64,000 nucleotides of DNA from the NCBI RefSeq assembly GCF_018271995.1, contig NZ_JAGUCO010000001.1, positions 496,001 through 560,000 of the forward strand. The letters are read 5' to 3'. How positions within the stretch are numbered: the first letter of the stretch is position 1; the number at the start of each line of letters is the position of its first letter. Shown here one piece after another: positions 17,079-61,030 of the stretch. This DNA comes from Carboxylicivirga linearis. Its GTDB lineage: Bacteria > Bacteroidota > Bacteroidia > Bacteroidales > Marinilabiliaceae. Position numbers and translations under genes: made by a program. The notes below the pieces were generated by a model that worked only from the letters and a program-made list of their open reading frames with translations, ran no database searches and was not told the DNA's origin.

Positions 17079-17112
17079 TACTTGATCCTTTTTATTTAGT
17101 TGTTGCTATGGT

Positions 17113-17120: not shown

Positions 17121-17139
17121 GCCTTCAAATAAAATCATA

Positions 17140-42764: not shown

Positions 42765-45176
42765 ATGAAGTATTTTTTAATAGTATTTGTAACTGTAATA
42801 TGTTCGTTAGGCAATGTTGTAAGAGCGCAACAAATTGATCCTTCAAGTGTAAATGTAAAAGAACTTTCTGATAGTCAAATCAATCAAATTGTAAATGAGA
42901 TTGAGAAAAGAGGACTTTCTGATGAAGAAGCCATTGCAGTAGCAAGGATGAAGGGAGCATCTTCTGCTCAGATAAATGAAGTAATGCAGCGCATTCGACA
43001 AGCACGTAATGGAAGTGTAGGCATTGGTTCAACAAACGGGGGTGCTAACTATCAAACGATAAATGATGATAGTACGAAAGGTAACTCGTTATCTAAGAAA
43101 CAATCATTTGAATTGAATGATGCGGATGAGACTTTTGGTTATAGTCTGTTTAATACAAAGAATTTAACCTTTGAACCATCTGTTAATATTCCTACTCCTA
43201 AGAACTATATATTAGGTATTGGGGATGAAGTGGTGATTACTGTTTGGGGTGCTTCGCAAGCTACTTATCAGTTGCAAGTTAGTAAAGAAGGAACTATTAA
43301 TATACCGGATATTGGTCCTGTAAACGTATTTGGACAGACGTTTGAATCAGTTTCTAAAAAAATAGAAAAGCATTTAACTGGTATTTATCAGGGGATGAAA
43401 GGTCAAAATCCTAATACTTATGCCGAAGTCAGTTTGGGAGCATTACGCTCAATAAAAGTAAATGTTGTTGGGGAAGTGAATGTACCGGGTACTTATACGG
43501 TTCCTGCAACTGCCGCAGCCTACAATGTATTATATCTCTCAGGTGGCCCCAATAGAAATGGATCATTTCGCAGCATTCAGATCCTTCGTGATGGAAAAAG
43601 TATCGAAACAATTGATGTTTATGAGTTTCTTCTTAGAGGAGAAGTTATTGATAATCTTAACCTGAAGGAAAATGATATTATTTATGTGCCGAGTTACAGA
43701 AGTAAAGTTCATTTGTCCGGATCGTTTAAACGAAGCGGTTATTTCGAAACATTAGAAGAAACAACTATTGCGGATATAATTGAATTGGCTGGAGGATTTG
43801 AGAACAATGCCTTTCAAAAAAATCTAACAGTAATCAGAAAGACCGATAGCGAGTTAAAGTACAAGGATGTGGCCAAAGCTGATTTTGATAGCTTTATCCT
43901 GGAAAATGGAGATGAAATAATATCGGGTCAATTATTGAATAGATATGAGAATAGAGTTACCATATCAGGTGCAGTATTTCGCCCCGGTAGCTATGAATTA
44001 TCTGAGGGTATGATGTTAACAGACCTGATCGATAAAGCGGAAGGTTTTATACCTGAAGTATATATGCAAAGAGGCATTATTACACGTCTAAATGAAGATG
44101 GATCATATCAAAATATCTCCTTTAGATTAAATGATGTTCTTGAAGGAAGTTGGAATACTCAGCTACAAAGAGAAGATGAAGTAACCATCAGAAGTGTTCA
44201 GGATATGAAAGAAGAGGAGCTTATTACTGTTAAAGGATTTGTGAATAATCCTGGTGAGCTGCCTTTTGCTTCTAATATGACATTAGCGGATGTAATTTTT
44301 ATAACTGGTGGTTTTCAAAATGATGCAGATATTAATGAAATTGAAATATCCCGTCGTCTTTCTTTTGACGAGGGACAAGAATATACCAATCAATTGGGGC
44401 ATATATTTACATTTAATGTAAGTAGAGATCTGCAACTTTCTGATGCGGATCAGGATTTTAAAATAGAACCCTATGATGTAATTAATGTAAGAAAAGCACC
44501 TGGTATTCGTGAAGGTGGTAGTGTTATCATTACAGGAGAGGTAATGCGAACAGGAACCTATAGTTTGGATAACAGAAAGGAACGAATCTCTGATTTGATT
44601 AACAGAAGTGGAGGATTAACACCTCTCGCTTATTCTAAAGGAGCTATGCTTCAACGTGAAGTTAAACTTACAGAGCAAGAAAGAGTTCAACGTCAATTGA
44701 TGATTGAAAGAGATTCATTGTTAGGCCTAGAAATGGAACAGCATGAACAAGTGGGTATCAGACTGGATAAAATTTTAAATAATCCGGGTAGTTCAGATGA
44801 CTTATTACTGGCAGCAGGTGATAAAATTTATATACCAAGAGAAATTAGAACAGTTAAGATTTCCGGTAACGTGATGAACCCTATCTCCATGACCTATAAA
44901 AATGGTAAAAGGGCTAAATTCTTTATAAAACAGGCTGGTGGATTTGATATCAGACCTAAAAGAAGTAGCGTCTATGTAGTAAGTGCCAATGGTATCTCAA
45001 AAACTACAAAAAACTATGTTTTATTCAAACGTTATCCTAAAGTTGAACCCGGCAGTGAGATAATGGTGCCACAGCGACCTGAATCAAATGTGGGCGTTGG
45101 GCAATGGGTAGCAATTGGTTCTGCTATTACCGGTTTGGCGATTAGTATTACCTCATTAGCTAATATTTTAAAATAA
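42765..45176 (+). CDS. Polysaccharide export protein (Wza-like) with six SLBB repeats
   Basis: An 803-residue outer-membrane exporter subunit. The signal peptide ends about VRAQQ (residue 23). A Poly_export domain follows at about 140-205 (NYILGIGDEVVITVWGAS). Six SLBB repeats are visible, each opening with a strand like NVVGEVNVPGTY, LSGSFKRSGYF, ISGAVFRPGSYE, VKGFVNNPGELP, ITGEVMRTGTYS and ISGNVMNPISM. A short hydrophobic C-terminal stretch ends it. Typical Wza has two to three SLBB repeats, so this is an elongated type common in Bacteroidota. It is the first gene of the locus. Confidence 0.92.
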   Translation: MKYFLIVFVTVICSLGNVVRAQQIDPSSVNVKELSDSQINQIVNEIEKRGLSDEEAIAVARMKGASSAQINEVMQRIRQARNGSVGIGSTNGGANYQTINDDSTKGNSLSKKQSFELNDADETFGYSLFNTKNLTFEPSVNIPTPKNYILGIGDEVVITVWGASQATYQLQVSKEGTINIPDIGPVNVFGQTFESVSKKIEKHLTGIYQGMKGQNPNTYAEVSLGALRSIKVNVVGEVNVPGTYTVPATAAAYNVLYLSGGPNRNGSFRSIQILRDGKSIETIDVYEFLLRGEVIDNLNLKENDIIYVPSYRSKVHLSGSFKRSGYFETLEETTIADIIELAGGFENNAFQKNLTVIRKTDSELKYKDVAKADFDSFILENGDEIISGQLLNRYENRVTISGAVFRPGSYELSEGMMLTDLIDKAEGFIPEVYMQRGIITRLNEDGSYQNISFRLNDVLEGSWNTQLQREDEVTIRSVQDMKEEELITVKGFVNNPGELPFASNMTLADVIFITGGFQNDADINEIEISRRLSFDEGQEYTNQLGHIFTFNVSRDLQLSDADQDFKIEPYDVINVRKAPGIREGGSVIITGEVMRTGTYSLDNRKERISDLINRSGGLTPLAYSKGAMLQREVKLTEQERVQRQLMIERDSLLGLEMEQHEQVGIRLDKILNNPGSSDDLLLAAGDKIYIPREIRTVKISGNVMNPISMTYKNGKRAKFFIKQAGGFDIRPKRSSVYVVSANGISKTTKNYVLFKRYPKVEPGSEIMVPQRPESNVGVGQWVAIGSAITGLAISITSLANILK

Positions 45177-45188
45177 AATAGTGATAGG
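45130..45188. other. Superseded marker for hairpin (see 45188-45230)
   Basis: Coordinate correction: the hairpin between the exporter and Wzz genes occupies 45188-45230; see the following entry for its description. Confidence 0.05.
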
Positions 45189-45230
45189 GAACGGTTCTTT
45201 ATAAACTTAATGTAGATAAAGAACCGTTCC
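45188..45230 (+). terminator. Strong hairpin after the exporter gene
   Basis: A perfect 15-bp stem, GGAACGGTTCTTTAT (45188-45202) with its reverse complement at 45216-45230, closes a 13-nt loop. It begins 11 nt after the stop codon and has no T tract. It could weaken read-through or protect the exporter mRNA 3' end, thereby setting the exporter level above that of downstream genes. Confidence 0.55.
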
Positions 45231-45246
45231 ATAGATAAAATATAAC

Positions 45247-45373
45247 AACCTCATCCCAACCCTCTCCTAAGAAGAGTAGAAGTCAAACTCAAGCAAGTAT
45301 TGAGGATAGTTTGGACGAGGAATTAGTGATGAGAATGGCTTCCTCTCCTCAAGGAGAGGATCAGAGGAGAGGT
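45247..45373. repeat. Small palindromic element (MITE-like) between exporter and Wzz genes
   Basis: About 127 bp with imperfect terminal inverted repeats: the left end AACCTCATCCCAACCCTCTC matches the right end when reversed (AACCTCTCCTCTGATCCTCT). An inner palindrome CCTCTCCT-CA-AGGAGAGG lies at 45342-45359. There is no coding capacity. The base composition and layout suggest a small dispersed repeat inserted in the operon. No target-site duplication was identified. Confidence 0.5.
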
Positions 45374-45449
45374 TTTAATACTAAAAATGAGTACCAACAT
45401 ACCAAACTTCTACCTTCTGCCTCAATAACTAACAAACTAATATAAAACC

Positions 45450-46556
45450 ATGGAACAAAAACATATATCCCCCGAAATAGAAGATGATGAAATTGACTTA
45501 ATTGCCATTGCTAAGACTATATGGGATGGACGTAGAATCATTATTAAATCAGTTATAGTTTTTACTATTATAGGTTTGTTTGTTGCAATCTTCTCACCCA
45601 AAGAGTATGTTGCCAGTTGTATTTTTGTGCCTCAGGTATCTGATGCCAAAGCTTCAGGTGGTAGCTTAAGTGGCTTGGCTGCAATGGCCGGAATTAGCTT
45701 AGGAAGTGGCGGGCAAAGTGCAGAGATCTCTCCTGCTATCTATCCTCAAGTAATTGCAGGAACTTCTTTCTGTAAAGAACTAATGGCAACAAAAATAAAG
45801 GTTTCTGATATTGAACAAGAAGTATCTTTTTTTGAATATTTTAAAGAAATAAAATCACCTTCAGTTGTTAGTAGTATAAAGAAATATACCATAGGATTAC
45901 CGGGAGTTATTAAAAATGCGATTTTACCTAAAAAAGAATCAGAATTAGGTGGTGAAATTGAGATAGGTGTCGAAACGTTAACAGAGGATGAATATAAAAT
46001 CAAACAATTAATTGGGGATATTCTAAGTTTAGAGGTAGATGATAAAGTTGGATATGTAAGTATCTCTGCAAAAATGCCGGAAGCTTATTCAGCTGCCCAG
46101 GTAGCTAAAAGTGCCCAGGATTTATTGCAAAAGTATGTCACGGATTATAAAATCAGCAACGCTCAAAAAGATTTGAATTTTGTAGTAGAACGATTTGCTG
46201 AGAAGGAAAAAGAGTTTTATCTGGCTCAGGAAGAATTAGCTAAATATACCGATCAGAATAAAAATATTACTTCAGCATATATAAAAGCCCAGTATGAAAG
46301 GTTGTCTTCAGATTACCAATTGAAATTTAATATCTACAATGAATTAGCCAAGCAACTTGAGCAAGCAAAGATTAAGGTAACAGAAGATACTCCGACATTT
46401 AATACTATTCAGAAAGTGACAGTGCCGAATGAAAAGGCTGCACCAAAAAGAGGGTTGATAATGGTAGTTTTTGTTTTTCTTGGTGGAGCTAGTGGCATTG
46501 GAATTGTTTATGGAAAAACATTATTGGCAGAAGTTAAAACTAAATGGATAGAATAA
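45450..46556 (+). CDS. Wzz-family chain-length determinant protein
   Basis: A 368-residue inner-membrane protein with one helix at about 32-51 (IIIKSVIVFTIIGLFVAIF), a large coiled-coil periplasmic part and a second helix near the C-terminus (GLIMVVFVFLGGASGIGIVY) preceded by the Pro-rich PNEKAAPKRG. This is the Wzz/PCP topology. There is no cytosolic tyrosine-kinase domain (no Walker A), so it is a Wzz-like or kinase-less PCP; a partner kinase is not in the window. Confidence 0.88.
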   Translation: MEQKHISPEIEDDEIDLIAIAKTIWDGRRIIIKSVIVFTIIGLFVAIFSPKEYVASCIFVPQVSDAKASGGSLSGLAAMAGISLGSGGQSAEISPAIYPQVIAGTSFCKELMATKIKVSDIEQEVSFFEYFKEIKSPSVVSSIKKYTIGLPGVIKNAILPKKESELGGEIEIGVETLTEDEYKIKQLIGDILSLEVDDKVGYVSISAKMPEAYSAAQVAKSAQDLLQKYVTDYKISNAQKDLNFVVERFAEKEKEFYLAQEELAKYTDQNKNITSAYIKAQYERLSSDYQLKFNIYNELAKQLEQAKIKVTEDTPTFNTIQKVTVPNEKAAPKRGLIMVVFVFLGGASGIGIVYGKTLLAEVKTKWIE

Positions 46557-46613
46557 TCGATTTTTTGTTGAGTTGACTATTGGATAGTAATTATGTTAGT
46601 CTAGGTATTAATT

Positions 46614-47255
46614 ATGGTAAAGAAGAATATACTTACAATTATGGATAACCACATATACACTACGTTTGATAAAATAAAAGACAGGCAAGCCAAAGAGATC
46701 TATCTAAAACAAAAGGGGAAAGTCATTTGGTTTACAGGTCTTTCTGGATCGGGTAAAACAACTTTAGCCAGCTTGTTGGAAGAACAATTATTTGAGCTAA
46801 ATTATTTCTGTCAGATACTAGATGGAGATAATGTTCGATCAGGGATTAATAAAAATTTAATTTTTACTGAGGAAGATCGATTAGAAAATATCCGGAGAAT
46901 AGCTGAAGTTTCCAAGTTATTTATGAATTGTGGTATTATTTTAATTTGTGCATTCATAAGTCCAACCAATAAAATGCGTTCATTAGCGCGTGAAATAATT
47001 GGTGATGAAGACTTTCTTGAAGTGTTTGTTAATACTCCATTGGAGGTTTGTGAACAAAGAGATCCTAAAGGGTTATATAAAAAGGCTCGTAAGGGTGAAA
47101 TTAAGAATTTTACAGGGATCTCATCTCCATTTGAACAACCGGATAAACCTTTTATTACAGTTGATAATACAAATGCTAATATGGAAGAGACGGTTAGAGA
47201 AATGTTGAAGAAAATACTACCGGAAATCAAATTTGATCCGATTTCAATACTTTAA
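46614..47255 (+). CDS. cysC: Adenylylsulfate kinase
   Basis: Phosphorylates APS to PAPS, the universal sulfate donor. The 213-residue protein has an intact P-loop GLSGSGKTTLAS, LDGDNVRSGIN, the APS-binding ICAFISPTNKMR, and RDPKGLYKKARKGEIKNF with TGISSPFE. All diagnostic motifs are conserved. It is the first of three sulfate-activation genes placed between the Wzz and flippase genes of an exopolysaccharide locus. No APS or PAPS reductase lies nearby, so its product is likely used for sulfation. Confidence 0.93.
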   Translation: MVKKNILTIMDNHIYTTFDKIKDRQAKEIYLKQKGKVIWFTGLSGSGKTTLASLLEEQLFELNYFCQILDGDNVRSGINKNLIFTEEDRLENIRRIAEVSKLFMNCGIILICAFISPTNKMRSLAREIIGDEDFLEVFVNTPLEVCEQRDPKGLYKKARKGEIKNFTGISSPFEQPDKPFITVDNTNANMEETVREMLKKILPEIKFDPISIL

Positions 47256-47303
47256 AGATTGATTTGTCAAAAAATTAGGTTACAACAGTATAAAAAAATA
47301 ATA

Positions 47304-48215
47304 ATGTCTGATAACTATTCATTATCCAATTTAAGGGAATTAGAAGCCGAGGCTATACACATTATTCGTGAAGTTGCCGCTGAATTCGAAAATCCTGTAA
47401 TGCTTTATTCAATAGGAAAAGATTCTTCAGTGATGGCTCGGTTAGCAGAAAAAGCTTTCTTTCCTGGTAAAGTTCCTTTTCCACTGATGCACATTGACTC
47501 CAAATGGAAGTTTCAGGAAATGATTGATTTTCGTGATCAATATGCAAAAGATAATGGATGGGACTTAATAGTTCATTACAATAAGCAAGGATTTGAAAGT
47601 GGAGTTGGTCCTTTTACTCATGGCAGTAAAGTTCACACTGATGTAATGAAAACACAGGCTTTATTAGAGGGACTGGATAAATATAAATTTGATGCAGCTT
47701 TTGGAGGGGCGAGGCGTGATGAAGAAAAATCACGAGCTAAAGAACGAATTTTTTCATTTCGGGACAGGTTTCATCAATGGGATCCCAAAAATCAGAGACC
47801 TGAATTGTGGAATATATATAATGCAAAAGTACATAAAGGAGAGAGTATTCGTGTTTTTCCAATTAGTAACTGGACAGAATTGGATATCTGGCAATATATT
47901 CGTTTAGAAAATATTCCAATCGTTCCACTGTATTACGCAAAAGAACGGCCGGTAGTTGAAGTAGATGGAAACCTAATTATGGTGGATGACGAACGGATGC
48001 CTGAAGAGTTAAGAAATAAAGCTGAAATGCGAATGGTTCGGTTTAGAACTTTAGGTTGTTATCCATTAACCGGTGCGGTTGAATCTGAAGCAGATACTAT
48101 TGAGAAGATTGTAGAAGAAATGATGACTGCTACTCAGTCGGAACGTACTACTCGCGTTATAGATTTTGATCAGGATGGGAGTATGGAACAAAAGAAGAGA
48201 GAAGGTTATTTTTAG
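47304..48215 (+). CDS. cysD: Sulfate adenylyltransferase subunit 2
   Basis: The catalytic ATP-sulfurylase subunit, which makes APS from sulfate and ATP. It has the PP-loop motif [38 protein letters not shown] and the C-terminal [17 protein letters not shown]. From ATG 47304 it is 303 residues; the frame extends upstream to 47259 but the first 15 residues are not family-like. It works with the GTPase CysN encoded downstream. Confidence 0.95.
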
Positions 48216-48287
48216 TAGAAGGTAACGTTCTTAATTATATAGCGGATAGGTGCCTAATTTAACCATTTACAAGCATTAGTATAGAAA

Positions 48288-50207
48288 ATGACAAATAATA
48301 AACTCGATATACAGGAGTTCTTAGATCAGGATCAAAAAAAAGATCTACTTCGATTATTAACAGCAGGATCCGTGGATGATGGAAAATCAACCCTGATTGG
48401 GCGTCTAATGTTCGATAGTAAGATGCTGTATGAAGATCAGCTGTCAGCCTTAGAGAGGGATAGTAAACGAATTGGCCATGCCGGGGAAGAAATAGATTAT
48501 GCATTGCTTTTAGATGGACTAAAAGCAGAACGGGAACAGGGAATTACTATTGATGTTGCGTATCGCTATTTTGCAACAAATAAAAGGAAGTTCATTATCG
48601 CTGATACTCCGGGACACGAGCAATATACTCGTAATATGATTACGGGTGGATCAACGGCCAATTTAGCAATCATACTGGTTGATGCAACAAAAGGTGTAAT
48701 AACGCAAACCCGTCGTCACACCTTTTTAGCCTCTTTGCTTGGAATTAAGCATATCGTTTTAGCCGTAAATAAAATGGATCTGGTTGATTTTGATCAGCAG
48801 GTTTTTGATAATATTTGCGCCGATTATACTCGATTTATCACTCAATTGGATATTCCGGATTTTCATGCAATACCTCTTTCAGCTTTAAAAGGGGATAATG
48901 TTGTTGATTTATCGGATAAAACACCTTGGTATCACGGGAAAAGTTTGCTTGAATTTCTGGAAACTGTTCATGTAGGTAGTGATCGAAATCTAAATGATTT
49001 TCGTTATCCAGTGCAAAATGTTTTACGCCCCGACAGATATTTTAGAGGATTTTCAGGAGTTGTTGTTTCAGGGGTTGTTGAAAAGGGAGATTCGGTTGTA
49101 GCATTGCCATCTGGTAAACAATCTCGTGTCAAATCTATACCTACTTACGATGGGGAATTGGAAAAGGCATTTGCACCACAGGCTATTACTATTGAGCTCG
49201 AAGATGAAATTGATATTTCACGTGGTGAGATGTTAGTTCACCCTGATAATGTGCCCAGAAAAGAGCGTCATTTTGAAGCGATGCTGGTTTGGATGGATGA
49301 AAAGAACATGGATCCTAATGCACAGTTTTTCCTAAAACAGACATCCAATACAGTAAGAGCCAGAATAGACCAGATTAGATATAAAACAGATGTTAATACT
49401 CTGGAGCATTCAGAAGTTGACCAACTTAAGTTAAATGAAATTGGTCGGACAGTAATTACGACTGCCAAACCTATTTTCTTTGATCCGTATAAGAAAAATA
49501 AAGCTACAGGCTCTTTTATACTTATCGACACAATGACAAATAATACGGTTGCTGTGGGTATGATAATAGATAAAATTGAGTCAGAATATCTACCTTCTAA
49601 AATAACATCAGAGGAAGAAGTAAAAATTGAAAAGGGAATTGGATTAGTACAGCAAAGCGAATATCAAAAAAGATATAATCAAAAGGGTGCTACTATTTGG
49701 ATAACTGGTCTGCATGGTTCCGGTAAAAATAAGTTGGCTTTTAGTTTGGAAAAACAGCTCTTCCAATCTGGTGCAACTGTTGTTTTATTGGATGGAAGTA
49801 CTCTTCGTTCCGGGTTAAATAGGGAACTTGATTTTTCCCCTTCTGACCGGGCTGAGCATTTACGGCGAGTTTCTCATATTGCTAAAATTTTAAATGATCA
49901 GGGAATTATTGTTATCTGTTCATTTATATCACATGATGAGGATATTCGTAGTCAATGTGCCCAAATTGTAGGAAAGGATCGCTTCCATTTGGTATATATG
50001 AATGCCGATATTGAATACTGTAGAACAAACCGTCCGGAATTATATAAATTAGGCGAAGACGGAAAAATATCACATATCCCCGGTTTTGATATTGAATATC
50101 AGATTCCTAATAATGCTAACCTTATTTTAAAGTCTTTCGATAAAGATCTTCATCCTAACATTGTATTAAACTATTTAGGAGAAAATGAAATCTATCCATT
50201 AAAATAA
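48288..50207 (+). CDS. cysN: CysN GTPase fused to a degenerate APS-kinase domain
   Basis: A 639-residue two-part protein. Residues 1 to about 445 are CysN, the GTPase subunit of ATP sulfurylase: P-loop GSVDDGKST (27-35), [12 protein letters not shown] and NKMDLVD, followed by beta-barrel domains. Residues about 460-639 are an APS-kinase-like domain. Its P-loop is GLHGSGKNK (Lys480, Asn481), LDGDN is changed to LDGST, and the usual RDPKGLYKKAR segment is [11 protein letters not shown]. These losses suggest that this domain is no longer an active kinase; the separate cysC gene would supply the activity. Confidence 0.92.
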
Positions 50208-50258
50208 TCCTAAGGTTTGGTTATTCTGAAGAAAAATTAAAACGGTAATAAATTAGAC

Positions 50259-51590
50259 TTGGTAAATAAGATAATATATAAAATAAATGCCATTGGCAAT
50301 AAGTTAGATATTCATACGCTAGAAGTAATAAAAAAATCTTCAGCTTCCATGCTTGTCAAGATTATAGGTATGTCAGCTACATTTGGCATTAGTATCATTC
50401 TTGGTCATAAAATTGGTCCTGAAGGTCTAGGGATTATTAATCTAGCTAATCGGATTGTGGCCATTGTAATTGTTCTGGCTATGATAGGTATGAATAATGT
50501 AATTTTAAAGGAAGTAGCAATAGCCTTTGAAAGAAAAGATTGGCATCATGTAGCCAATACAATTTATACAGCTTATTTAGTCAATATTCCCTTGGCTTTA
50601 GTTATTAGTATAATATTTATTATATTAACACCTTGGGTTAATAAAAATTTTTTCCAAGAGCCTTCTCTTGATATACCTTTGATTGTTGCTTTATCTGTAG
50701 TTGTACCTCAAGTTCTTTCACGAATTTTTGCCTCAGGAATTAACGGTTTCAGGAAGATATGGCAAAGTAGTGTGGTAAATGATACATTAAGTTCTGGGGT
50801 CGTGGTAATTGGCTTAGTAACACTTCTAGCATTAGAAATAGAGATAACAGTAGTCCGTGTTGCTATATTATTTGCTATTAGTCGTATTGTGGTAACTATT
50901 GCTGTTGGAAGCTACTGGAAGAAATTATTTAAATTTGAAGGAAAACGAATCCCTAGAATCCATCCGATGATAAAAGTTGCCATGCCATTACTAATTGTAT
51001 CTGCTACAACTTTGATAGCAAGTAATGCTGATACTGTAATGCTTGGTTGGCTAAGTAATGCTCGTCAGGTAGGGTTTTATAGTGTAGCAGCAGGCTTGGG
51101 GCTTTTAACAAGTTTTTTTCATATTCTTACAGCTTCAACTCTCACTCCAAAAATTGCAGCATTAAATTCACAAGGGAAATTGCAGACTTTACAAACTATG
51201 GTTCAACAGGTGACTAAAGGATTGATAGTTATCGGAGGTGTAGGATTACTCATATTTTTTCTTGGAGGAGAATATATATTAAAATTATGGGGTGAAGAAT
51301 TTAGTGCTGCCTATTGGCCTTTGGTTATTATTTCTATAGGCCAACTATTTAATATTGGAACCGGTGCAACAGGGATAATATTAATAATGACAGGTCACGA
51401 AAAAATTGTTGGTTATATTACATTAGTATCAGCAGTTACCAATCTAATGTTAAACTACTTTTTAATTCCTCTATATGGTGCGACAGGGGCTGCTATTGCA
51501 ACAGCAGTTACTGTTATTTTAGAAAACATTATAAAAGTCATTATTGTTAAACAACAGGTGAATATCTATACAATTCCATATTTAAAATAA
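50259..51590 (+). CDS. Wzx-type polysaccharide flippase
   Basis: A 443-residue membrane protein with 12-14 hydrophobic segments, from the MATE-like polysaccharide biosynthesis family. The opening IIGMSATFGISIILGHKIGPEGLGIINL is characteristic. It should flip the lipid-linked repeat unit across the inner membrane. The frame is closed by a stop at 50238, and the first ATG (50349) would cut into the first helix, so I accept the TTG at 50259. It separates the sulfate-activation genes from the sulfotransferase. Confidence 0.88.
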   Translation: MVNKIIYKINAIGNKLDIHTLEVIKKSSASMLVKIIGMSATFGISIILGHKIGPEGLGIINLANRIVAIVIVLAMIGMNNVILKEVAIAFERKDWHHVANTIYTAYLVNIPLALVISIIFIILTPWVNKNFFQEPSLDIPLIVALSVVVPQVLSRIFASGINGFRKIWQSSVVNDTLSSGVVVIGLVTLLALEIEITVVRVAILFAISRIVVTIAVGSYWKKLFKFEGKRIPRIHPMIKVAMPLLIVSATTLIASNADTVMLGWLSNARQVGFYSVAAGLGLLTSFFHILTASTLTPKIAALNSQGKLQTLQTMVQQVTKGLIVIGGVGLLIFFLGGEYILKLWGEEFSAAYWPLVIISIGQLFNIGTGATGIILIMTGHEKIVGYITLVSAVTNLMLNYFLIPLYGATGAAIATAVTVILENIIKVIIVKQQVNIYTIPYLK

Positions 51591-51606
51591 TTAATTAACA
51601 AATAAG

Positions 51607-52374: not shown

Positions 52375-53081
52375 TTAGAGGATTATTTATTTTGTTCTTA
52401 AAAAATCCAATTTTAATATGGTGTAGAAGTTTCTACAATGGATGCAAGTTATTATGGCGCCATAGATATAAGAATTTAAAAATTCATTACAATGTCCATA
52501 TAGGTGGAACAATATTAGGTATGTATAATACCTTCTATGATAATGTTGAAGTGCGTAATTGCAGTGTTGGAAGTCATGTATATGTTTCTCAAAATACAAT
52601 TATATCAAATGCCACCATTGGTAGTTTTTGCTCTATAGGTGCCAATTGCAAAATCGGTTTAGGAAAACATCCGATAAATTATTTATCAACTTATCCTGCC
52701 TTCTATTCAAATCGTAAACAATCTCAGATAAGCTTTGTAAAAGAAAATCATTTTGAAGAGATAGGAAGAGTCGTCATCGGAAATGATGTATGGATTGGAA
52801 GCAATGTTACTATTTTAGACGACGTAACTATTGGGAATGGTGCCATAATTGCAGCTGGTGCTGTTGTTAATAAAGATGTATCTCCCTATTCGATTGTTGG
52901 GGGAATACCTGCGCGTCATATAAAATTTCGATTTTCAATTGAGGTTATTGAAAAGCTAAAACAATTTAAATGGTGGGAAAAAGAAGAGAAATGGCTTCTT
53001 GAAAATCTAAACTTCTTTACCTCTGAGAAAGGGGTTGATGAATATCTTAAAAAGAATTTCGATGAAACGAATATTATCTGA
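52371..53081 (+). CDS. Hexapeptide-repeat O-acetyltransferase
   Basis: A 236-residue left-handed beta-helix enzyme of the CatB/xenobiotic acyltransferase branch. Its hexapeptide runs include NATIGSFCSIGANCKIG, VWIGSNVTILDDVTIGNG and AIIAAGAVVNKDVSPY. The likely catalytic His is in IGLGKHPINY, and the C-terminal IVGGIPARHIKFRF is typical. It should O-acetylate a sugar of the polymer or its precursor. Its start overlaps the sulfotransferase stop (ATGA), and its 3' end overlaps the next glycosyltransferase. Confidence 0.88.
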   Translation: MIRGLFILFLKNPILIWCRSFYNGCKLLWRHRYKNLKIHYNVHIGGTILGMYNTFYDNVEVRNCSVGSHVYVSQNTIISNATIGSFCSIGANCKIGLGKHPINYLSTYPAFYSNRKQSQISFVKENHFEEIGRVVIGNDVWIGSNVTILDDVTIGNGAIIAAGAVVNKDVSPYSIVGGIPARHIKFRFSIEVIEKLKQFKWWEKEEKWLLENLNFFTSEKGVDEYLKKNFDETNII

Positions 53082-53856
53082 TTCTCCGAAAGTATCTATA
53101 ATTACAGTGGTTTACAATGACTCTGAGAGAGTTTTGACTACTTTAAAGAGTGTATCAAAGCAGACTTATCCTTATATAGAATATATTGTAATTGATGGAA
53201 ATAGTAATGATAATACATTAGAAGTAATAAAAGAATCTAATGTTAAGATTGATATTTTGATTAGTGAACCCGATAAAGGTATTTATGATGCGATGAATAA
53301 GGGCTGTAAATATACATCTGGTGAGTTCATAATGTTTCTTAATGCTGGAGATACCTTATTTTCGAATGACACTATTAAAGAAATACTCGATTTTGATAAA
53401 AGTAAAGATTGTGATGTAATTTATGGTAAATACATGAATGACTATGTAACCTTCAAAAAAGAGATAAATCCAATGCCTATTGGCAAGATGTATAAAACTA
53501 TGCCATTTTGTCACCAAGCAACTCTTACTAAGCGAGAATGGTTAATAAAATATCCCTTTAACCTTAAATATAGGCTTATTGCTGATTATGATTTCTTTAG
53601 AAAGATTTATAAAAATGGAGCCCATTATTTATTTCGCCCTATTGTTATTTCTAATTATTTATGTACAGGGGGGGCTTCTGCAGATAACTTGTTAAAAGTT
53701 TATAAAGAGAATTTCTATATAACAAAAGATATCAATGTGATTTTAAGATCTTATTGGTTAATAAAGAAAGTGTTTAACTACTATCTCTCGTTATTTACAA
53801 AATTTATTCTTCCAGAATCGACCGTTAATTGGATTAAGAAATTAAAATCCAAATAA
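53062..53856 (+). CDS. GT2-family glycosyltransferase
   Basis: A GT-A fold enzyme of 264 residues from ATG 53062. The N-terminus is PKVSIITVVYNDSERVL; the nucleotide-binding region is IVIDGNSNDNTLEVI; the metal motif region is FLNAGDTLFSND; and CHQATLTKREWL follows. It belongs to the family of WcaA/WcaE-like transferases. ATGs at 53038 and 53062 are possible; the second gives the usual N-terminus. It overlaps the acetyltransferase gene by 20 nt, showing tight operon packing. Confidence 0.87.
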   Translation: MKRILSDSPKVSIITVVYNDSERVLTTLKSVSKQTYPYIEYIVIDGNSNDNTLEVIKESNVKIDILISEPDKGIYDAMNKGCKYTSGEFIMFLNAGDTLFSNDTIKEILDFDKSKDCDVIYGKYMNDYVTFKKEINPMPIGKMYKTMPFCHQATLTKREWLIKYPFNLKYRLIADYDFFRKIYKNGAHYLFRPIVISNYLCTGGASADNLLKVYKENFYITKDINVILRSYWLIKKVFNYYLSLFTKFILPESTVNWIKKLKSK

Positions 53857-53925
53857 TAAATAGCGAGTAGTATCTTCAATTATTTTATATAATTTATTAA
53901 CGAGATTAGACACAATTAATTAGAA

Positions 53926-54777
53926 ATGAAAATAATCTATCTTGTTCCTTTTGGTGGTTTAGCTAACCGTTTACGGGTAATTGCATCCGCAATTGAGTTT
54001 TCAAAAGAATACAATTTTAAATTGAAAGTATTTTGGATAAATAGACCCGAACTTAATAGTAGTTATGATGATTTACTTTGCAGTATTCCGAATGTAGAGA
54101 TTATATCAAAAAAGAATAATATCTTATGGAGAGCGCTGATACATATATCGTCTCATTATACAATATATTCATGGTTAAAAAAGACATTGTTATTAACTGA
54201 CTATATGCTTAAGTCTAAATTTGAGAAAGGCTACTTTGATATAGAATCAGAAAAATTCTGTAATTATTTGATGAAATCACATAAATCTAAAAACTGGTTA
54301 ATAACTTGTAGAAAATTTTATAATTATTCAAATAAAACACTTAATCTTTTCGTTCCTCAAATTAAAGTTCAAGACAAAGTAGATAAGTTTATTAAAGAGA
54401 ACATTGGGGGGAAATTTATTGCTGTACATATTCGTAGAACAGATAATAGTATCTCTATTGAAAATTCACCACTCCATTTATTTGAAGCTGTAATTGAAAA
54501 AGCTATTCTTAAAAACACAAAAATTTTAGTTTGCACAGATAGTTCATCAACCAAACAATATCTTAAAGAAAAATATTCTAGTAGTTTGGTTATACCTGAG
54601 TCAAATTTATCTCGTAATTCTAAAGAAGGAATTACAGATGCTTTTGTAGAATTTATTTTACTAAGTAATTCCCTTAAGATATATGCTTCACAAGGTTCTA
54701 CTTTTTCGCTTTTAGCATCGGAGTTTAAAAGTATTGATCTTGAGATTGTATCAAAAACTGCAGAAATTAGTTCCTAA
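53926..54777 (+). CDS. GT-B-type transferase with HIRRTD motif, probable fucosyltransferase
   Basis: A 283-residue enzyme. The N-terminus has GGLANRLRVIASAIEFSKEY, a nucleotide-sugar binding loop with G-G-L-x-N-R. HIRRTDN at 168-174 resembles the H-x-R-R-x-D motif of O-fucosyltransferase-type (GT11/GT23-like) enzymes. The C-terminal ASQGSTFSLLASEF fits the donor site. gmd and fcl in the same locus supply GDP-L-fucose, so it is a good candidate for the enzyme that adds fucose. The family assignment is by motif. The gene is very AT-rich. Confidence 0.68.
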   Translation: MKIIYLVPFGGLANRLRVIASAIEFSKEYNFKLKVFWINRPELNSSYDDLLCSIPNVEIISKKNNILWRALIHISSHYTIYSWLKKTLLLTDYMLKSKFEKGYFDIESEKFCNYLMKSHKSKNWLITCRKFYNYSNKTLNLFVPQIKVQDKVDKFIKENIGGKFIAVHIRRTDNSISIENSPLHLFEAVIEKAILKNTKILVCTDSSSTKQYLKEKYSSSLVIPESNLSRNSKEGITDAFVEFILLSNSLKIYASQGSTFSLLASEFKSIDLEIVSKTAEISS

Positions 54778-54782
54778 TTATA

Positions 54783-55973
54783 ATGATTTTAATCTTAAGA
54801 ATCCTAGCAGATATACTTTGGTTTATAAAACCTGTTAATATATCTGTCAATATTATATTATTAATACCATTTTTAAGGCAAATAAAAAGAGGAAAAATTA
54901 GGAAAAGTCTGCTGGGACAGATTCTGAAGTATATGGTGTTGATTTTCTTGTTGCTATTTATTGTCTCATATTGTAGAGATATAAGTACTGGGTCAACAAA
55001 ATTAATTTTTAAAATCGCCTTCTCATTCATAATGTTTTATTATGGAACTCAATATAAAGGTGATTTAGAAATTTTTTTAAAAAAAATATGTAATTTTTCT
55101 ATTATAGGTTTAATCACATTCTTCTTTCTTTCGTTTATTCCTGCTTCATATCAGAATTGGGGTGATAAAAATACATTTGTTGGATTATACTATTTTAAAA
55201 CGGATATGGCTCTTTCTATTGTAATATTTCTTTCATTTGCTATAATCGATAATATCAAGAAGATGTATTTGTTTTTGTTGACCATAATCTCTTTATACCT
55301 TATAATTATTACTAATGCTAGAATTCATTTGCTTTCATTCTTTTTTTTAATTTGTTTAAGAGTTATTCCAAATTCTATCTTCAATAATCTTAGAAGAAAA
55401 TTATTGTATGTAGTACCAATTTTTATATTCATTTCATTGCTTTTCTTAAAATTATATTTTGAGCATATAGCTTCTGCTGATACACTGAAGGTTAGTTTTA
55501 GTGAAGAAGAACTTTTTTCAGGGGAAAATACTCAAGGTAGAAATGTAATTTGGTTATCAGTGTTAGATGGATTTTTTAAAGAGAATGGAATAAACAAAAT
55601 TGTTGGAACTCATTTATTACAGGATGAAGAATATGTATATAAATATAGTAAGTTAAGTCATAATGCCCATAATGGATATTTGTTTGTTCTTGTCTCAACT
55701 GGAGTTATTGGATTACTTTTATTCTTGATAATTATTTTTATAATTTTTGATAGGCTAATTAACCTTGGACAAATGATGTTTGATTTTAATTTACTAAGGA
55801 AAAATGAATTTTCTTATAAAATTCTATTCATAACAATTGTCCATTTGTTTGTATTTGTAATTACTAATTTGACAAATAATTCAATACTATTTCAGCAACA
55901 GACGTGGTTTTTTATGTTCTTTGCAGGAATCCTTTATAATAAAAAAGTAATTAACCAAATAATTAATTTATAG
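54783..55973 (+). CDS. Wzy-type O-antigen/exopolysaccharide polymerase
   Basis: A 396-residue membrane protein with about ten hydrophobic helices and a large loop near residues 235-295. It lacks long conserved motifs, as is normal for Wzy, but SHNAHNGYLFVLVSTGVIGL is the usual H-N family region of the O-antigen ligase/polymerase group. It should link repeat units at the outer face of the inner membrane. The AT content is among the highest in the window. Confidence 0.78.
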   Translation: MILILRILADILWFIKPVNISVNIILLIPFLRQIKRGKIRKSLLGQILKYMVLIFLLLFIVSYCRDISTGSTKLIFKIAFSFIMFYYGTQYKGDLEIFLKKICNFSIIGLITFFFLSFIPASYQNWGDKNTFVGLYYFKTDMALSIVIFLSFAIIDNIKKMYLFLLTIISLYLIIITNARIHLLSFFFLICLRVIPNSIFNNLRRKLLYVVPIFIFISLLFLKLYFEHIASADTLKVSFSEEELFSGENTQGRNVIWLSVLDGFFKENGINKIVGTHLLQDEEYVYKYSKLSHNAHNGYLFVLVSTGVIGLLLFLIIIFIIFDRLINLGQMMFDFNLLRKNEFSYKILFITIVHLFVFVITNLTNNSILFQQQTWFFMFFAGILYNKKVINQIINL

Positions 55974-55977
55974 TTTA

Positions 55978-56856
55978 ATGCTTGCTCCTATTTGCCTGTT
56001 TACCTATAATCGACCCGAAGAGGTTAAACAAACTATTTGTGCCTTAAAAAATAATTTTCTATCCAAAAAATCGAAGCTTTATATTTTTTCAGACGGATAT
56101 AAAGGAGAAAGCGATATTAATCAAGTAAAAGAGGTAAGAAATTTATTAAAAAATATTGATGGTTTTGCTGAAGTAGTGGTTTATGAAAGTGATATTAATA
56201 AAGGGTTAGCAGAATCTGTAATTTCTGGTGTATCAATGGTATTAAAAGAAAACGATTCAGCAATTGTTTTGGAAGATGATTTATTAACTTCACGGAATTT
56301 TTTAACTTTCATGAATCAGGCTATTGAATTTTATGTGAATTCTAATAATATTTTTTCCATTTCAGGTTATACGCTAGATCTGCCCGGTTTAAAGACGTAC
56401 GAAAGGGATTACTATTTTGGATATAGGGCGTCATCATGGGGATGGGCAACTTGGAAAGATAGATGGAATAAAATAGATTGGGATGTAAAAGATTATAATA
56501 TTATATTACGCAGTCCATTGAAGCAAATTAAATTTATGAAGGGGGGGTCGGACCTCCCATACATGTTATGGAAACAGATGAACGGAAAAATTGATTCATG
56601 GGCAATTAGATGGTGTTTTAATCAATTTCAATCTAAAACGTATACAGTTTTCCCTAAGAAATCGAAAATTGAGAGTATTGGGTTTGGAGCTTCAGCGACC
56701 CATACTAAAAAGACAACTCGCTTTAATACATTACTTGATGACGGTGACCAACAAGAGTTTGAATTTGAGGAATTTGATGGAGTTGATAAGAATTTAGCTA
56801 AACAATTTCGAAATAAATTTTCGATAAAAAACAGGCTATTAGGAAAGATATGGTAG
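55978..56856 (+). CDS. GNT-I/GT2-like glycosyltransferase
   Basis: A 292-residue enzyme whose start PICLFTYNRPEEVKQTI and VVVYESDINKGLAESVISG resemble GT2-type sugar transferases with a GT-A fold. The metal motif is LEDDLLTSRNFL. The central block FGYRASSWGWATWKDRW is a typical marker of this family. Acceptor and donor are unknown. It begins 4 nt after the polymerase stop and overlaps the next gene by 7 nt. Confidence 0.82.
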   Translation: MLAPICLFTYNRPEEVKQTICALKNNFLSKKSKLYIFSDGYKGESDINQVKEVRNLLKNIDGFAEVVVYESDINKGLAESVISGVSMVLKENDSAIVLEDDLLTSRNFLTFMNQAIEFYVNSNNIFSISGYTLDLPGLKTYERDYYFGYRASSWGWATWKDRWNKIDWDVKDYNIILRSPLKQIKFMKGGSDLPYMLWKQMNGKIDSWAIRWCFNQFQSKTYTVFPKKSKIESIGFGASATHTKKTTRFNTLLDDGDQQEFEFEEFDGVDKNLAKQFRNKFSIKNRLLGKIW

Positions 56857-57959
56857 CGAAAGAAAAAGTCCTATTTCTCCTCCACCTCCCACCTCCTGTT
56901 CATGGTTCTTCGCTGGTAGGTCAATATATCAAAGGGAGTGATCTTATAAACAATAAGTTTTCAACACGATATATTAATTTACTGGCATCAAAAAGAGTAG
57001 ATGATTCAGGAAAAGTCAGTTTAAGTAAACTATTAGGGATGATTGTAACTATTATTAATCTATTAAGAGAGTTAATATTACATCGCCCTCAATTGTGTTA
57101 TTTAGCATTAACTTCGACAGGAGCCGCATTCTATCGTGATGTACTATTGATTAGTTTACTTAAATTATTCGGTGTAAAACGTATTTACCATATGCACAAT
57201 AAGGGAATACGTAGAAATGAAGATTATCCTTTTCATAGTTTCTTTTACCGATTTGTTTTTAATGGAAGTAATGTAATTCTTCTAGCAAAAAAACTGTATA
57301 AAGATGTTCAGACTTTTGTACCTGAGAAAAATGTAGATATTCTTCCCAATGGTATTCCTCAGAAACCATTTAAAGTAGAAGAGATAAAAGACAAGGAAAT
57401 AATTAATATATTGTTTCTATCCAATTTAATTGAGTCAAAAGGGGTATATGTGCTGCTTAGAGCGATGGCTATTCTTAAAAGAAAGGGGATTGTTTTTAAA
57501 GGAACATTTATCGGTGGTGAAGGAGATATTTCTAGTGATCAATTAACACAGAAAGTCAATCAGTTTGAATTACAGAATCAGGTGGAATATCTTGGAAAGA
57601 GATATGGTGCAGATAAAGAATTAGCATTTTGTATAGCAGATATCTTTGCATTTCCAACATTCTATGCAAATGAATGTTTTCCATTAGTTTTGTTGGAAGC
57701 TATGCAACATTCTTTACCTGTTATTTCAACAAATGAAGGAGGAATACCTGATATTATAGAAGAAAGTATAACAGGGTTTATTGTTACTAAAAATGATTCA
57801 CTGGCTTTAGCTAATAAATTGGAAGTACTAATAACAAATCCTGAATTAAGAAAGAGTATGGGAAAAAAAGGTTATGAAAAATTTCATACTCATTATACTA
57901 TTGATCAATTTGAAAATCGTCTTTGTGAAATTTTAGAAATAGTACTGCAAAAAGATTAA
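56850..57959 (+). CDS. GT4-family glycosyltransferase
   Basis: A 369-residue GT-B enzyme. The N-terminus LHLPPPVHGSSLVGQYI is the acceptor-side opening typical of many GT4 members. The C-terminal donor domain has ILFLSNLIESKGVYVLLRA, FIGGEGD and the E-x7-E motif region CFPLVLLEAMQHSLPVIST. It adds one sugar of the repeat unit. Confidence 0.9.
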   Translation: MVAKEKVLFLLHLPPPVHGSSLVGQYIKGSDLINNKFSTRYINLLASKRVDDSGKVSLSKLLGMIVTIINLLRELILHRPQLCYLALTSTGAAFYRDVLLISLLKLFGVKRIYHMHNKGIRRNEDYPFHSFFYRFVFNGSNVILLAKKLYKDVQTFVPEKNVDILPNGIPQKPFKVEEIKDKEIINILFLSNLIESKGVYVLLRAMAILKRKGIVFKGTFIGGEGDISSDQLTQKVNQFELQNQVEYLGKRYGADKELAFCIADIFAFPTFYANECFPLVLLEAMQHSLPVISTNEGGIPDIIEESITGFIVTKNDSLALANKLEVLITNPELRKSMGKKGYEKFHTHYTIDQFENRLCEILEIVLQKD

Positions 57960-57961
57960 TA

Positions 57962-58675
57962 ATGTTAAAGTCATTTGATGTATTTAACGGTTTACTTGTT
58001 AGTTTGAGTTCGAAGAAAATGTTGATATCAACAATAAATGCACATTCTTATAATGTTAGTAAGAAAGATGATGTATTTCGCCAAGCGTTGCAAAAGAGTC
58101 AGGTGTTAATACCTGATGGGGTCAGTGTTGTTTGGGCTTTTAAATGGTTAAAAGGACAGAAATTAACTAAAATTGCCGGAGCTGATTTGTTTTATTATGA
58201 AATGAAGCGATTACAGGAAAAGGGCGGCAAATGCTTTTTCTTAGGGAGTACAGTTGAAACATTGGATAAGATAAAGAAAAGAGCTTCTATTGAATTTCCA
58301 AATATTAGTATTGAAACATATTCACCTCCATATAAGCCTGAATTTACAAAGGAAGATAATGGTGTCATGGTGGAAAAAATAAATTCCTTTCAACCGGATG
58401 TACTTTTTATTGGTTTAACTGCCCCGAAACAAGAAAAATGGGCTTATAAACATTATGATGATTTAGATGTAGGGCATATTGGATGTATAGGTGCAGTGTT
58501 TGATTTTTATGCAGGAACGATCAAAAGAGCTCCAAACTGGATGATAAATCTAGGATTAGAATGGTTTTACCGTTTGATTAAAGAACCCAAACGAATGTGG
58601 AAGAGATATATAATTGGGAATATGATTTTTATTTTTACTATAATAATTGAAAAATATTTTAGAACTTTAGAATAA
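57962..58675 (+). CDS. WecG/TagA/CpsF-family glycosyltransferase (GT26)
   Basis: A 237-residue enzyme with the GT26 markers: [40 protein letters not shown] and [17 protein letters not shown], and a C-terminal amphipathic helix region [13 protein letters not shown]. This family transfers the second sugar onto a lipid-linked first sugar, such as N-acetylmannosamine(uronate) or glucose. It therefore implies an initiating transferase that is not in this window. Confidence 0.9.
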
Positions 58676-58676
58676 A

Positions 58677-59840
58677 ATGGCAAATCAAAAAGTTGCATTT
58701 ATAACAGGTATTACAGGTCAGGATGGTGCATATCTGACTGAGTTTTTATTAAAAAAAGGATATATTGTACATGGTTTAAAGCGTCGTTCTTCGATGTTTA
58801 ATACTGATAGGATTGATCATTTATACCAGGATCCTCATGTGGAGAATCGCAATCTGGTTCTTCATTATGGTGATTTAACAGATTCAATGAACCTGACTCG
58901 GATCATTCAGGAGGTTCAACCAGATGAGATTTATAATCTGGCGGCTATGAGTCATGTTAAAGTAAGCTTTGATACTCCTGAATATACAGCTAATGCGGAT
59001 GGTATTGGTACTTTGCGTATTTTAGAGGCAGTACGTTTGTTAGGCCTAACTGAAAAAACTCGTATTTATCAGGCTTCAACTTCTGAGTTATATGGTTTAG
59101 TACAAGCGGTACCTCAGTCTGAGACAACACCGTTTTACCCACGTTCGCCATATGCTGTGGCTAAAATGTATGCATACTGGATTACAGTAAATTACCGTGA
59201 AGCATATAATATGCATGCATCAAACGGTATCTTATTTAATCATGAAAGTCCGGTGCGAGGAGAGACTTTTGTTACCCGTAAGGTAACACGGGCTATGAGT
59301 CGTATTGCTTTAAGCATGCAGGAAAAAGTTTATATGGGTAACCTATCAAGTAAACGTGACTGGGGACATGCAAAAGATTATATCAAGGCTATGCACTTAA
59401 TCTTGCAGCAAGATCAGCCGGATGATTATGTAATTGCAACAGGTATTACAACCACTATTCGTGATTTTATCAAAATGGCAGGAGCAGAAGCAGGATTGGA
59501 GATCATCTTTAAAGGTGAAGATGCTGATGAAAAAGGATATATTGCATCTGTTGATGAAAATATTTTCTGTGAAAAAGTAGGTGAACAATACCTGGCTAAT
59601 ATCAAAGAAAAAATTGCTTCACAGTCTGAAATAGTTGAAGTAGATCCTCAATATTTCCGTCCGACAGAAGTGGATTTGTTAATTGGAGATCCAACAAAAT
59701 CTAAAACAGTTCTTGGATGGGAGCCTGAATATGATCTTAAAGGCTTAGTTGAAGATATGATGCAGTCGGATATTAAACTAATGCAAAAAGATGCCTATCT
59801 TAAAGCCGGAGGATATCAGACTTTAAATTATTTCGAGTAA
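58677..59840 (+). CDS. gmd: GDP-mannose 4,6-dehydratase
   Basis: An SDR enzyme of 387 residues that makes GDP-4-keto-6-deoxymannose, the first step toward GDP-L-fucose. NAD-binding [15 protein letters not shown] and the catalytic Thr-Glu-Tyr-Lys region (ASTSELYG, then [12 protein letters not shown]) are intact. [15 protein letters not shown] and [11 protein letters not shown] are typical of Gmd. It ends the main run of glycosyltransferase genes and is followed by a hairpin before fcl. Confidence 0.96.
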
Positions 59841-59871
59841 GGAAAGAGTGTTAGTACAATAATTAATAGGT

Positions 59872-59903
59872 AAAGCAGATCGTATTATGGTCTGCTTTTT
59901 TAG
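59872..59903 (+). terminator. Terminator-like hairpin in front of fcl
   Basis: AAAGCAGA (59872-59879) pairs with TCTGCTTT (59891-59898) and is followed by T6. It ends 4 nt before the fcl start codon at 59906. It may terminate the long operon, or act as an attenuator if fcl has no promoter of its own. Confidence 0.75.
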
Positions 59904-59905
59904 TT

Positions 59906-61030
59906 ATGGAAAAAATGAATAAAGATTCAAAAATATATATTGCAGGTCATCGTGGTTTGGTAGGGTCTGCCATCTTAAAGAATTTAATAGAACAAGGTTA
60001 TACTAATCTGATATTTCGTACTCACCGAGAACTGGATTTAACTGATCAAAAATCTGTAGCAGACTTTTTTGAAATAGAAAAACCTGAGTATGTTATTCTT
60101 GCTGCAGCAAAAGTTGGAGGTATTGTAGCCAATAATACTTATAGAGGTGATTTTATTTATGCAAATATGCAGATTCAGAATAATGTGATTCATCAATCGT
60201 ATTTGCATGGTGTAAAGAAACTCTTATTTCTCGGTTCTACCTGCATTTACCCAAAGAATGCACCGCAGCCTATGCCGGAAGATTGTCTGCTTACCGATAC
60301 ATTGGAATATACCAATGAGCCATATGCTATTGCAAAAATAGCCGGATTAAAGATGTGTGAAAGTTATAATCTTCAATACGGGACTAATTTTATATCTGTA
60401 ATGCCAACAAATCTGTATGGTCCAAATGATAATTTTAACCTAGAGACTTCACATGTATTACCGGCAATGGTGCGTAAAATTCATTTGTCAAATTGCCTTG
60501 AGGAAAGCAATTGGGATGCTATCAGAGCTGATTTAAATGCTCGCCCTATAGAAGATGTCGATGGTAATGTTTCAGAAAATGAGATGATTGGTATTTTAAA
60601 TAAATATGGGATTTCTAATAATGAGCAAACAGGAGAAGTAAGTCTGGCATTATGGGGTAGTGGGAAACCGATGCGTGAATTTCTATGGAGTGAAGACATG
60701 GCTGATGCATGTATTTTCATCATGGAGAATCGTGATTTTAGTGATGTGATTGAGCAAAGTTTTTCCAAAGAAAGAGCTAATGAAATTAGAAATACACATA
60801 TTAATATTGGTACTGGTAAGGAACTAAAGATTAGTGGATTGGCAAAAATTATTAAAGAAACAATTGGATTTAGTGGCAATATTTGTTTTGATTCTTCTAA
60901 ACCGGATGGTACCATGCGTAAATTGACTGATCCATCTAAACTTCATAATCTGGGTTGGAAACATAAAGTTGATTTGGAAGAAGGAATTAGATTGATGTAT
61001 CAATATTATTTAGAATCAATTACAAAATAG
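59906..61030 (+). CDS. fcl: GDP-L-fucose synthase
   Basis: An epimerase-reductase of 374 residues. The N-terminus is [15 protein letters not shown]. The catalytic Ser-Tyr-Lys are in [18 protein letters not shown] and [14 protein letters not shown]. It is about 50 residues longer than E. coli Fcl, owing to an insertion around 190-240 ([18 protein letters not shown]). It completes GDP-L-fucose synthesis with gmd and is the last gene of the locus. The start could also be the ATG 9 nt farther in. Confidence 0.95.

Follow-up and report, generated by a model that had tools for sequence, protein, structure and literature searches.

Why would a gene cluster for an exported polysaccharide carry its own enzymes for activating sulfate? 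The question arises in Carboxylicivirga linearis, in a window of 64,000 nucleotides (NCBI RefSeq assembly GCF_018271995.1, contig NZ_JAGUCO010000001.1, positions 496,001 to 560,000 of the forward strand; C93:496001-560000 in our numbering of this genome, G000, which comprises 6.05 Mb in 180 contigs). At positions 42765-61030 of this window, the list of open reading frames (ORFs) gives 16 tightly spaced genes in a single orientation (+), all of them open and full length. They include CysC, CysD and CysN, which would make adenosine 5′-phosphosulfate (APS) and 3′-phosphoadenosine 5′-phosphosulfate (PAPS), and a PAPS-dependent sulfotransferase. We consider it probable, at roughly 0.82, that the locus specifies an exported polysaccharide of the Wzx/Wzy type and that this polymer is sulfated by means of a dedicated second PAPS set.

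CysC, a stand-alone APS kinase (46614..47255), scores 216.6 bits with PF01583 and 230.7 with TIGR00455, above the cut-off, and has GLSGSGKT, DGDNVR and DPKGLY intact. It is followed by CysD, the small subunit of sulfate adenylyltransferase (47259..48215; TIGR02039 505.3, above cut-off; Pfam CysD domain 181.7 bits), and by the large subunit CysN (48288..50207; NF004035 871.3 and TIGR02034 619.1 bits, both above cut-off; Pfam GTPase 149.8). An earlier, sequence-only reading of this DNA had called the last gene simply cysN; that identity holds, but the product is a 639-aa fusion with an APS-kinase-like tail (149.3 bits) rather than a plain CysN. The sulfotransferase (Sulfotransfer_1; 51607..52374; PF00685 150.4 bits) lies just beyond the Wzx flippase gene.

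Elsewhere the genome holds the genes expected for cysteine synthesis. A genome-wide profile search placed a second CysD with a stand-alone CysN on contig C159, a single-copy CysH on C148, and CysJ, CysI and CysK together on C110; therefore, the window set is not the sole one. No PAPS/APS reductase or sulfite reductase was found in the window, and the genome-wide PF01507/PF01077 matches lie on other contigs, apart from the window CysD. A Sat-type ATP sulfurylase (PF01747) had no match in the genome. The sequence-only reading had noted that no PAPS or sulfite reductase genes were near, had proposed a genome search for separate assimilatory cysDN and cysH/cysI, and would have been contradicted by a cysDNC that was the genome's only set and was needed for growth on sulfate; in the light of these results it stands. 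Thus, the window genes neither adjoin reductases nor form the sole cysDN, as those of an assimilatory sulfate reduction operon would. Instead, they form an additional set for PAPS synthesis within a polysaccharide cluster, in a genome that also has an assimilatory set, and are accompanied by an in-cluster sulfotransferase.

The type of CysH bears directly on whether assimilation needs PAPS at all. The cysteines CC...CxxC, the cysteine set of APS reductases, are present in 7/7 CysH sequences checked (its own and six relatives). Furthermore, the C. linearis CysH passes the APS-reductase model TIGR02055 (266.4 against a cut-off of 235.3) and fails the PAPS-reductase model TIGR02057 (190.1 against 254.2). 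Since this CysH is of the APS-reductase type, assimilation need not use PAPS, and cysteine is probably made from APS without PAPS in this genome.

The arrangement of the window genes recurs in relatives. In a congener (G012), the order is export protein, Wzz, UDP-sugar dehydrogenase, CysC, CysD, CysN fusion, Wzx and sulfotransferase, followed by different sugar genes that include Gmd-Fcl. In a member of another genus (G036), Wzz, CysC, CysD, CysN fusion and Wzx stand in a row, and further along are both a pyruvyl transferase and a protein of the Sulfotransfer_4 family. A third relative (G051) has an inositol-phosphatase-family protein, presumably of CysQ type, followed by CysC, Wzx, sulfotransferase, acetyltransferase and GT2, with no CysDN on that 12.6 kb contig.

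Could the CysC-CysD-CysN genes simply serve assimilation, as a regular or reserve set, and have landed in a polysaccharide locus by chance? Their nearest CysD-CysN relatives, in Prolixibacteraceae, do look assimilatory. Of 32 genomes, 14, several of them incomplete metagenome-assembled genomes (MAGs), have no APS-kinase match apart from the fused domain, and 12 of these 14 have exactly one CysD-type and one CysH-type match; the CysN fusion therefore seems to serve assimilation in that family. However, C. linearis holds a separate set with an APS-type CysH, so CysC is unnecessary for assimilation, and the window genes are flanked by Wzz and Wzx, with a sulfotransferase alongside, an arrangement kept in G012 and G036. 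We therefore regard a chance assimilatory set as very unlikely.

Across the family, APS kinase and sulfotransferase occur together, which supports the use of PAPS for sulfation. In 71 family genomes, an APS-kinase match was found in 28 and PF00685 in 21, and all 21 fall within the 28. An APS-kinase match other than the fused domain is present in 20/21 PF00685 genomes; one of the 20 (G016) has a contig-edge fragment only, and G028 is a fused-only genome. The association (21/21 versus 7/50) had a Fisher p of 2e-12 (7e-11 excluding G028), and it persisted by genus (7/7 versus 3/14, p 0.001) and inside the genus of the window (11/11 versus 0/3, p 0.003). Moreover, for 16 of 36 sulfotransferase matches, the contig also bears a non-fused APS kinase no more than about 10.3 kb from the start of the match, a count that omits five fused-domain APS-kinase rows and keeps 37 of 42. 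In the 32-genome set, which is biased because its members were picked for CysN relatives or interest, a hand count gave PF00685 in 10 of the 15 genomes with a non-fused APS kinase (leaving aside a fragment in G080) and in 3 of the other 17. Taken with the separate assimilatory set, its APS-type CysH and the loci of G012 and G036, this co-occurrence supports the proposal of the sequence-only reading that PAPS is made here for polymer sulfation and not for assimilation.

Several observations weigh against sulfation as the purpose of these genes. The Fisher tests ignore phylogeny, and within genera g8, g15 and g18 no significant association was seen (p 1, 1 and 0.17). An APS-kinase match of any kind occurs without PF00685 in 7/50 family genomes, and PF00685 itself misses other sulfotransferase families, such as the Sulfotransfer_4 of the G036 locus. 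Three members of the 32-genome set (G028, G082 and G084) have PF00685 and only a dead-looking kinase domain. Two broader CysH models with PAPS-reductase names also pass for the C. linearis protein (NF002537, 297 against 154; TIGR00434, 209 against 165). Finally, two congeners (G009 and G015; loci L240 and L239) keep CysD-CysN in a matching export locus with no APS-kinase or PF00685 match in either genome. These two loci share the export protein, Wzz and dehydrogenase with the locus of G012; after CysD-CysN they continue with a DegT aminotransferase and a different Wzx.

The last case means that CysDN alone in such a locus is no proof of sulfation; the window, unlike G009 and G015, holds both CysC and a sulfotransferase. 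The same two congeners give some ground for supposing that the module is a relic, in which genes remain open while the sulfated polymer is no longer made. Against this, the window genes are open and full length, the CysC motifs are intact, and the sulfotransferase aligns with solved enzymes over most of its length. We accordingly give a relic hardly any credence.

A sulfotransferase might also serve another acceptor. Its sequence contains YPKSGNTW, KSH, YRDPRDVVISYY and RSGKSEWK, which we take to be the PAPS motifs of sulfotransferases, as had been pointed out from the sequence before; RSGKSEWK is one residue shorter than the usual RKGxxGDWK. Among solved structures, cytosolic SULTs that act on small molecules come closest (Protein Data Bank (PDB) sequence search, best E 1.7e-29), and relatives of this enzyme are rare, occurring in 2/71 family genomes (E 1e-15). 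If it acted on a small molecule or lipid, as BT_0416 of Bacteroides thetaiotaomicron acts on cholesterol, with putative PAPS genes adjoining the sulfotransferase there as well (PMC9417993), the polymer would be unsulfated. However, the gene sits between Wzx and an acetyltransferase within a sugar operon, and the order Wzx, sulfotransferase, acetyltransferase, GT2 is kept in G051. Besides, comparable loci in G012 and G036 hold other sulfotransferases, one of them of a different family. A non-polymer acceptor thus appears unlikely, and sulfation of the exported polysaccharide remains our preferred reading.

We infer the following enzyme steps from the established functions of these families, and propose an acceptor and a timing for them. 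CysD-CysN would convert sulfate and ATP to APS, and the stand-alone CysC would convert APS to PAPS. The sulfotransferase would then move sulfate from PAPS to a sugar of the repeat unit in the cytoplasm, probably while the unit is lipid-linked and ahead of flipping by Wzx. Gmd-Fcl would supply GDP-L-fucose, a likely building block, a hexapeptide enzyme may acetylate the repeat unit, and Wzx, Wzy, Wzz and the export protein would assemble and export the polymer. In this scheme, CysC-CysD-CysN would be dedicated to sulfation, and the CysD-CysN of contig C159 would feed cysteine synthesis via APS reductase.

The remaining genes of the locus fit such an exported polymer, and Pfam and NCBIfam bear out the gene list first read from the sequence (cysC, cysD, cysN, sulfotransferase, gmd-fcl) as well as the assignment to the Wzx/Wzy type. 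The locus opens with an outer-membrane polysaccharide export protein of the OPX/Wza type (Poly_export and SLBB; 42765..45176; PF02563 59.7 bits, PF10531 159.4) and a Wzz-type co-polymerase for chain length (PCP; 45450..46556; PF02706 40.9 and PF13807 30.4 bits). The Wzx flippase (50259..51590) matches PF01943 (Polysacc_synt) at 78.4 bits. The Wzy polymerase candidate (54783..55973) is marginal, with 32.4 bits for PF04932 (Wzy_C), barely above the cut-off of 31.7. Sugar transfer would fall to a GT2 glycosyltransferase (53035..53856; PF00535 77.7 bits), a probable GT-A glycosyltransferase (55978..56856; sub-threshold PF00535 match, E 0.0018; a relative in the C137 sugar cluster of the same genome, 144.9 bits), a GT4 enzyme (56850..57959; PF00534 110.8 bits) and a WecG/TagA/CpsF enzyme (57962..58675; PF03808 190.9 bits). 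No initiating sugar-phosphate transferase was found among the scanned locus proteins, the rest of the genome not having been searched for one, and neither cysQ nor a sulfate permease occurs in the locus. The G+C content in the middle of the locus is about 0.26-0.31, against 0.357 for the whole window; low G+C is usual in sugar-unit cassettes.

The composition of the polymer can be predicted with less assurance. Gmd, the GDP-mannose 4,6-dehydratase (58677..59840; PF16363 484.3 bits), is followed by Fcl, a GDP-L-fucose synthase of 374 aa with an internal insert (59906..61030; Pfam epimerase 196.5 bits; NF047922 434.9 bits, short of the cut-off of 500). Because of the insert, Fcl matches the GDP-fucose synthase model in two separate stretches, and the G012 relative is of equal length. 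The candidate fucosyltransferase (53926..54777) proposed by the sequence-only reading does have the motif HIRRTD; on the other hand, it has no Pfam match at E 0.001, and its two best matches, O-FucT (E 0.043) and NodZ (E 0.065), fall short of the cut-off. Against PDB sequences, it gave a single chance-level match (E 0.64), and no relatives were confirmed in viral contigs. A single-sequence structure model of this protein was discarded (pLDDT 36). Fucose in the polymer is thus suggested by Gmd-Fcl, together with this weakly supported candidate. The hexapeptide O-acetyltransferase candidate (52371..53081; PF00132 62.8 bits; no NCBIfam model above cut-off among the best 25 of 47) is the one gene that points to acetylation, and the resemblance to algal fucans is an analogy.

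Two further sulfotransferases occur in the genome. One is found on contig C137, in an ABC-transporter-type sugar cluster (L015, G000:C137:174000-193900; sulfotransferase 8781-9557, APS kinase 17094-17684) that also includes glycosyltransferases, a methyltransferase and the ATPase of an ABC transporter; an additional APS kinase is about 8 kb away, and in G019 the spacing is similar, at 7.8 kb. The C. linearis genome may thus encode a second sulfated glycan. The other, a Sulfotransfer_3 protein (L016 9262-10389, G000:C103), is on a contig without an APS-kinase match.

What is the origin of the second set? A maximum-likelihood tree of 69 CysN sequences, rooted at the midpoint only, joins the window CysN with Tangfeifania, Mariniphaga and one Bacteroidales MAG in a clade (support 100/98), and the stand-alone CysN of the same genome groups with its genus (support 100/97). 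Identity to Prolixibacteraceae copies reaches 86% for CysC and about 90-92% for CysD, and the order CysC, CysD, CysN fusion is also found in contigs of Prolixibacteraceae (L069) and Bacteroidales (L073). Since the window CysN is nested among Prolixibacteraceae copies, transfer is suggested; the set was probably acquired horizontally. A Prolixibacteraceae-like donor is the simplest reading, the direction being inferred from one tree.

What, then, does the APS-kinase-like tail of CysN do? This domain (49683..50129; PF01583 149.3 bits) is predicted to be a pseudokinase. Residue roles were taken from M. tuberculosis CysC (Lys456, Ser457, Asp478, Asp480, Arg483, Arg497 and Lys562; PMC4373884) and compared over 28 aligned CysN fusions, which include the window (L022) and two from one genome (L066 and L069, the latter cut by a contig end). 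The Mg ligand, the base and the catalytic lysine are replaced in 28/28, so that the catalytic residues of an active bifunctional CysNC are lacking. Specifically, the Walker Ser/Thr position is Asn in 26/28 and Arg in 2/28, and the residue aligned with the catalytic Asp is Ser in 24/28, Lys in 2, and Ile or Ala in the rest. The catalytic Lys position, whose Lys562 equivalent was mapped through a gapped stretch of the alignment, is Pro in 23/28, with Ser, Tyr or Thr in the others. All 28 keep the Walker Lys, the first Asp of DGD and an APS-contacting Arg, and 27 keep a second Arg. In contrast, DGD is present in 42 and GK[ST] in 41 of the 43 distinct ORFs for stand-alone APS kinases that the retrieved loci contain. 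The 28-row alignment omits four of 32 full-length fusions, all from other phyla (L076, L077, L084 and L092): L084 and L092 have intact kinase motifs, and L076 and L077, from Halopseudomonas and another gammaproteobacterial CysN-CysC fusion, keep the P-loop and have DGK in place of DGD. The tail of the acquired CysN is thus probably catalytically dead, and therefore PAPS must come from the separate CysC.

A dead tail need not be a useless one. It is under purifying selection, with dN/dS of 0.00-0.06 against 0.014-0.022 for the GTPase part, over the only four pairs whose dS was usable, of which three lie within Maribellus. Its AlphaFold model has the APS-kinase fold (pLDDT 89.2), and Foldseek matches it best to the APS kinases of Arabidopsis, Penicillium and humans (TM about 0.9); a fungal sulfurylase with an allosteric domain (PDB 1i2d) appears at rank 49 (TM 0.83). 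A regulatory or structural role is likely. Because the Walker lysine and the APS-contacting arginines are kept while the Mg ligand, base and catalytic lysine are lost, sensing of APS or PAPS is conceivable. Our tentative suggestion, which we hold to be possible rather than probable, is that the tail is a pseudo-APS-kinase kept for regulation, an APS/PAPS sensor that would throttle the GTP-driven sulfate-activating complex, widespread in Prolixibacteraceae and carried into the sulfation module beside a live CysC. Such a tail could parallel, in bacteria and on a different subunit, the allosteric domain of the fungal enzyme. As the fusion seems assimilatory in Prolixibacteraceae, the dead-looking tail is no invention of the sulfation locus. 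Furthermore, the 14 fused-only genomes presumably make no PAPS, so APS is the likelier ligand there and PAPS sensing as the tail's sole role is weakened.

Shorter or more decayed tails occur elsewhere. In Parabacteroides (L075), G009 and G015, it is a short stretch only; no APS-kinase match was found in the CysN protein of G015 or anywhere in the G009 and G015 genomes. In Lentisphaeria/Victivallales (L078-L083 and L088), the CysN tail is more decayed, with the P-loop lost except in L078, where its lysine is changed; this decay is possibly independent.

Clusters with spare PAPS genes and sulfotransferases have already been published. The capsule cluster of Vibrio sp. KMM 8419 likewise has a second cysC, cysN and cysD with sulfotransferases, and its authors describe PAPS and sulfotransferase genes as a hallmark; that capsule, of rhamnose and glucose, is of the ABC-transporter type and has a structure from NMR, whereas the window locus is of the Wzx/Wzy type with Gmd-Fcl and is known from its genes alone (PMC11641403). 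The sulfated-capsule cluster of Cobetia marina KMM 1449 shares a CysN/CysC fusion, cysD and sulfotransferase genes with the window. There, however, cysN/cysC is called bifunctional and cysQ and a sulfate permease lie in the cluster (PMC11766843), whereas the window has a dead-looking fused kinase, a separate CysC and neither of the other two genes. The synechan (xss) cluster of Synechocystis 6803, tested by mutants, also specifies a Wzx/Wzy-dependent exopolysaccharide with sulfotransferases; as described, it has no OPX gene, and PAPS is unmentioned in the main text (PMC8205485), in contrast to the PAPS genes and OPX of the window. In Bacteroidota, BT_0411-BT_0416 of B. thetaiotaomicron similarly place putative PAPS genes next to a sulfotransferase, but with cholesterol as the acceptor and, as described, no polysaccharide locus (PMC9417993). 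An arrangement resembling that cholesterol-sulfate cluster occurs in Parabacteroides sp. 52 (L075 7343-14099), where an Inositol_P family protein, presumably of CysQ type, an SLC13-like permease, CysC, CysD, CysN with a short tail and a Sulfotransfer_3 protein stand in a row. A putative sulfated-polymer cluster is also known in Pontiella, of the Verrucomicrobiota (PMC7356697).

The CysN tail is thus the most original part of the present findings. Fungal ATP sulfurylase, too, carries a fused APS-kinase-like domain without a kinase role on a sulfate-activating enzyme (PMC3779200; PDB 1i2d); the fungal domain, through which PAPS regulates the enzyme, is joined to the catalytic sulfurylase, whereas that of the window is joined to the GTPase subunit CysN, where binding of a regulatory ligand is only predicted. 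Among the titles and abstract openings surveyed, we found no report of a degenerate APS-kinase domain on CysN and no paper on sulfated exopolysaccharide genes in Bacteroidota/Prolixibacteraceae.

In genomes that assimilate sulfate by way of APS, a stand-alone APS kinase would be a marker of sulfation, as its presence in 20 of the 21 sulfotransferase-bearing genomes suggests. If this is true, the sulfated polymers of this group could be found by genome search. The conserved yet dead-looking tail of CysN raises, in addition, a question of regulation that is within reach of simple enzymology.

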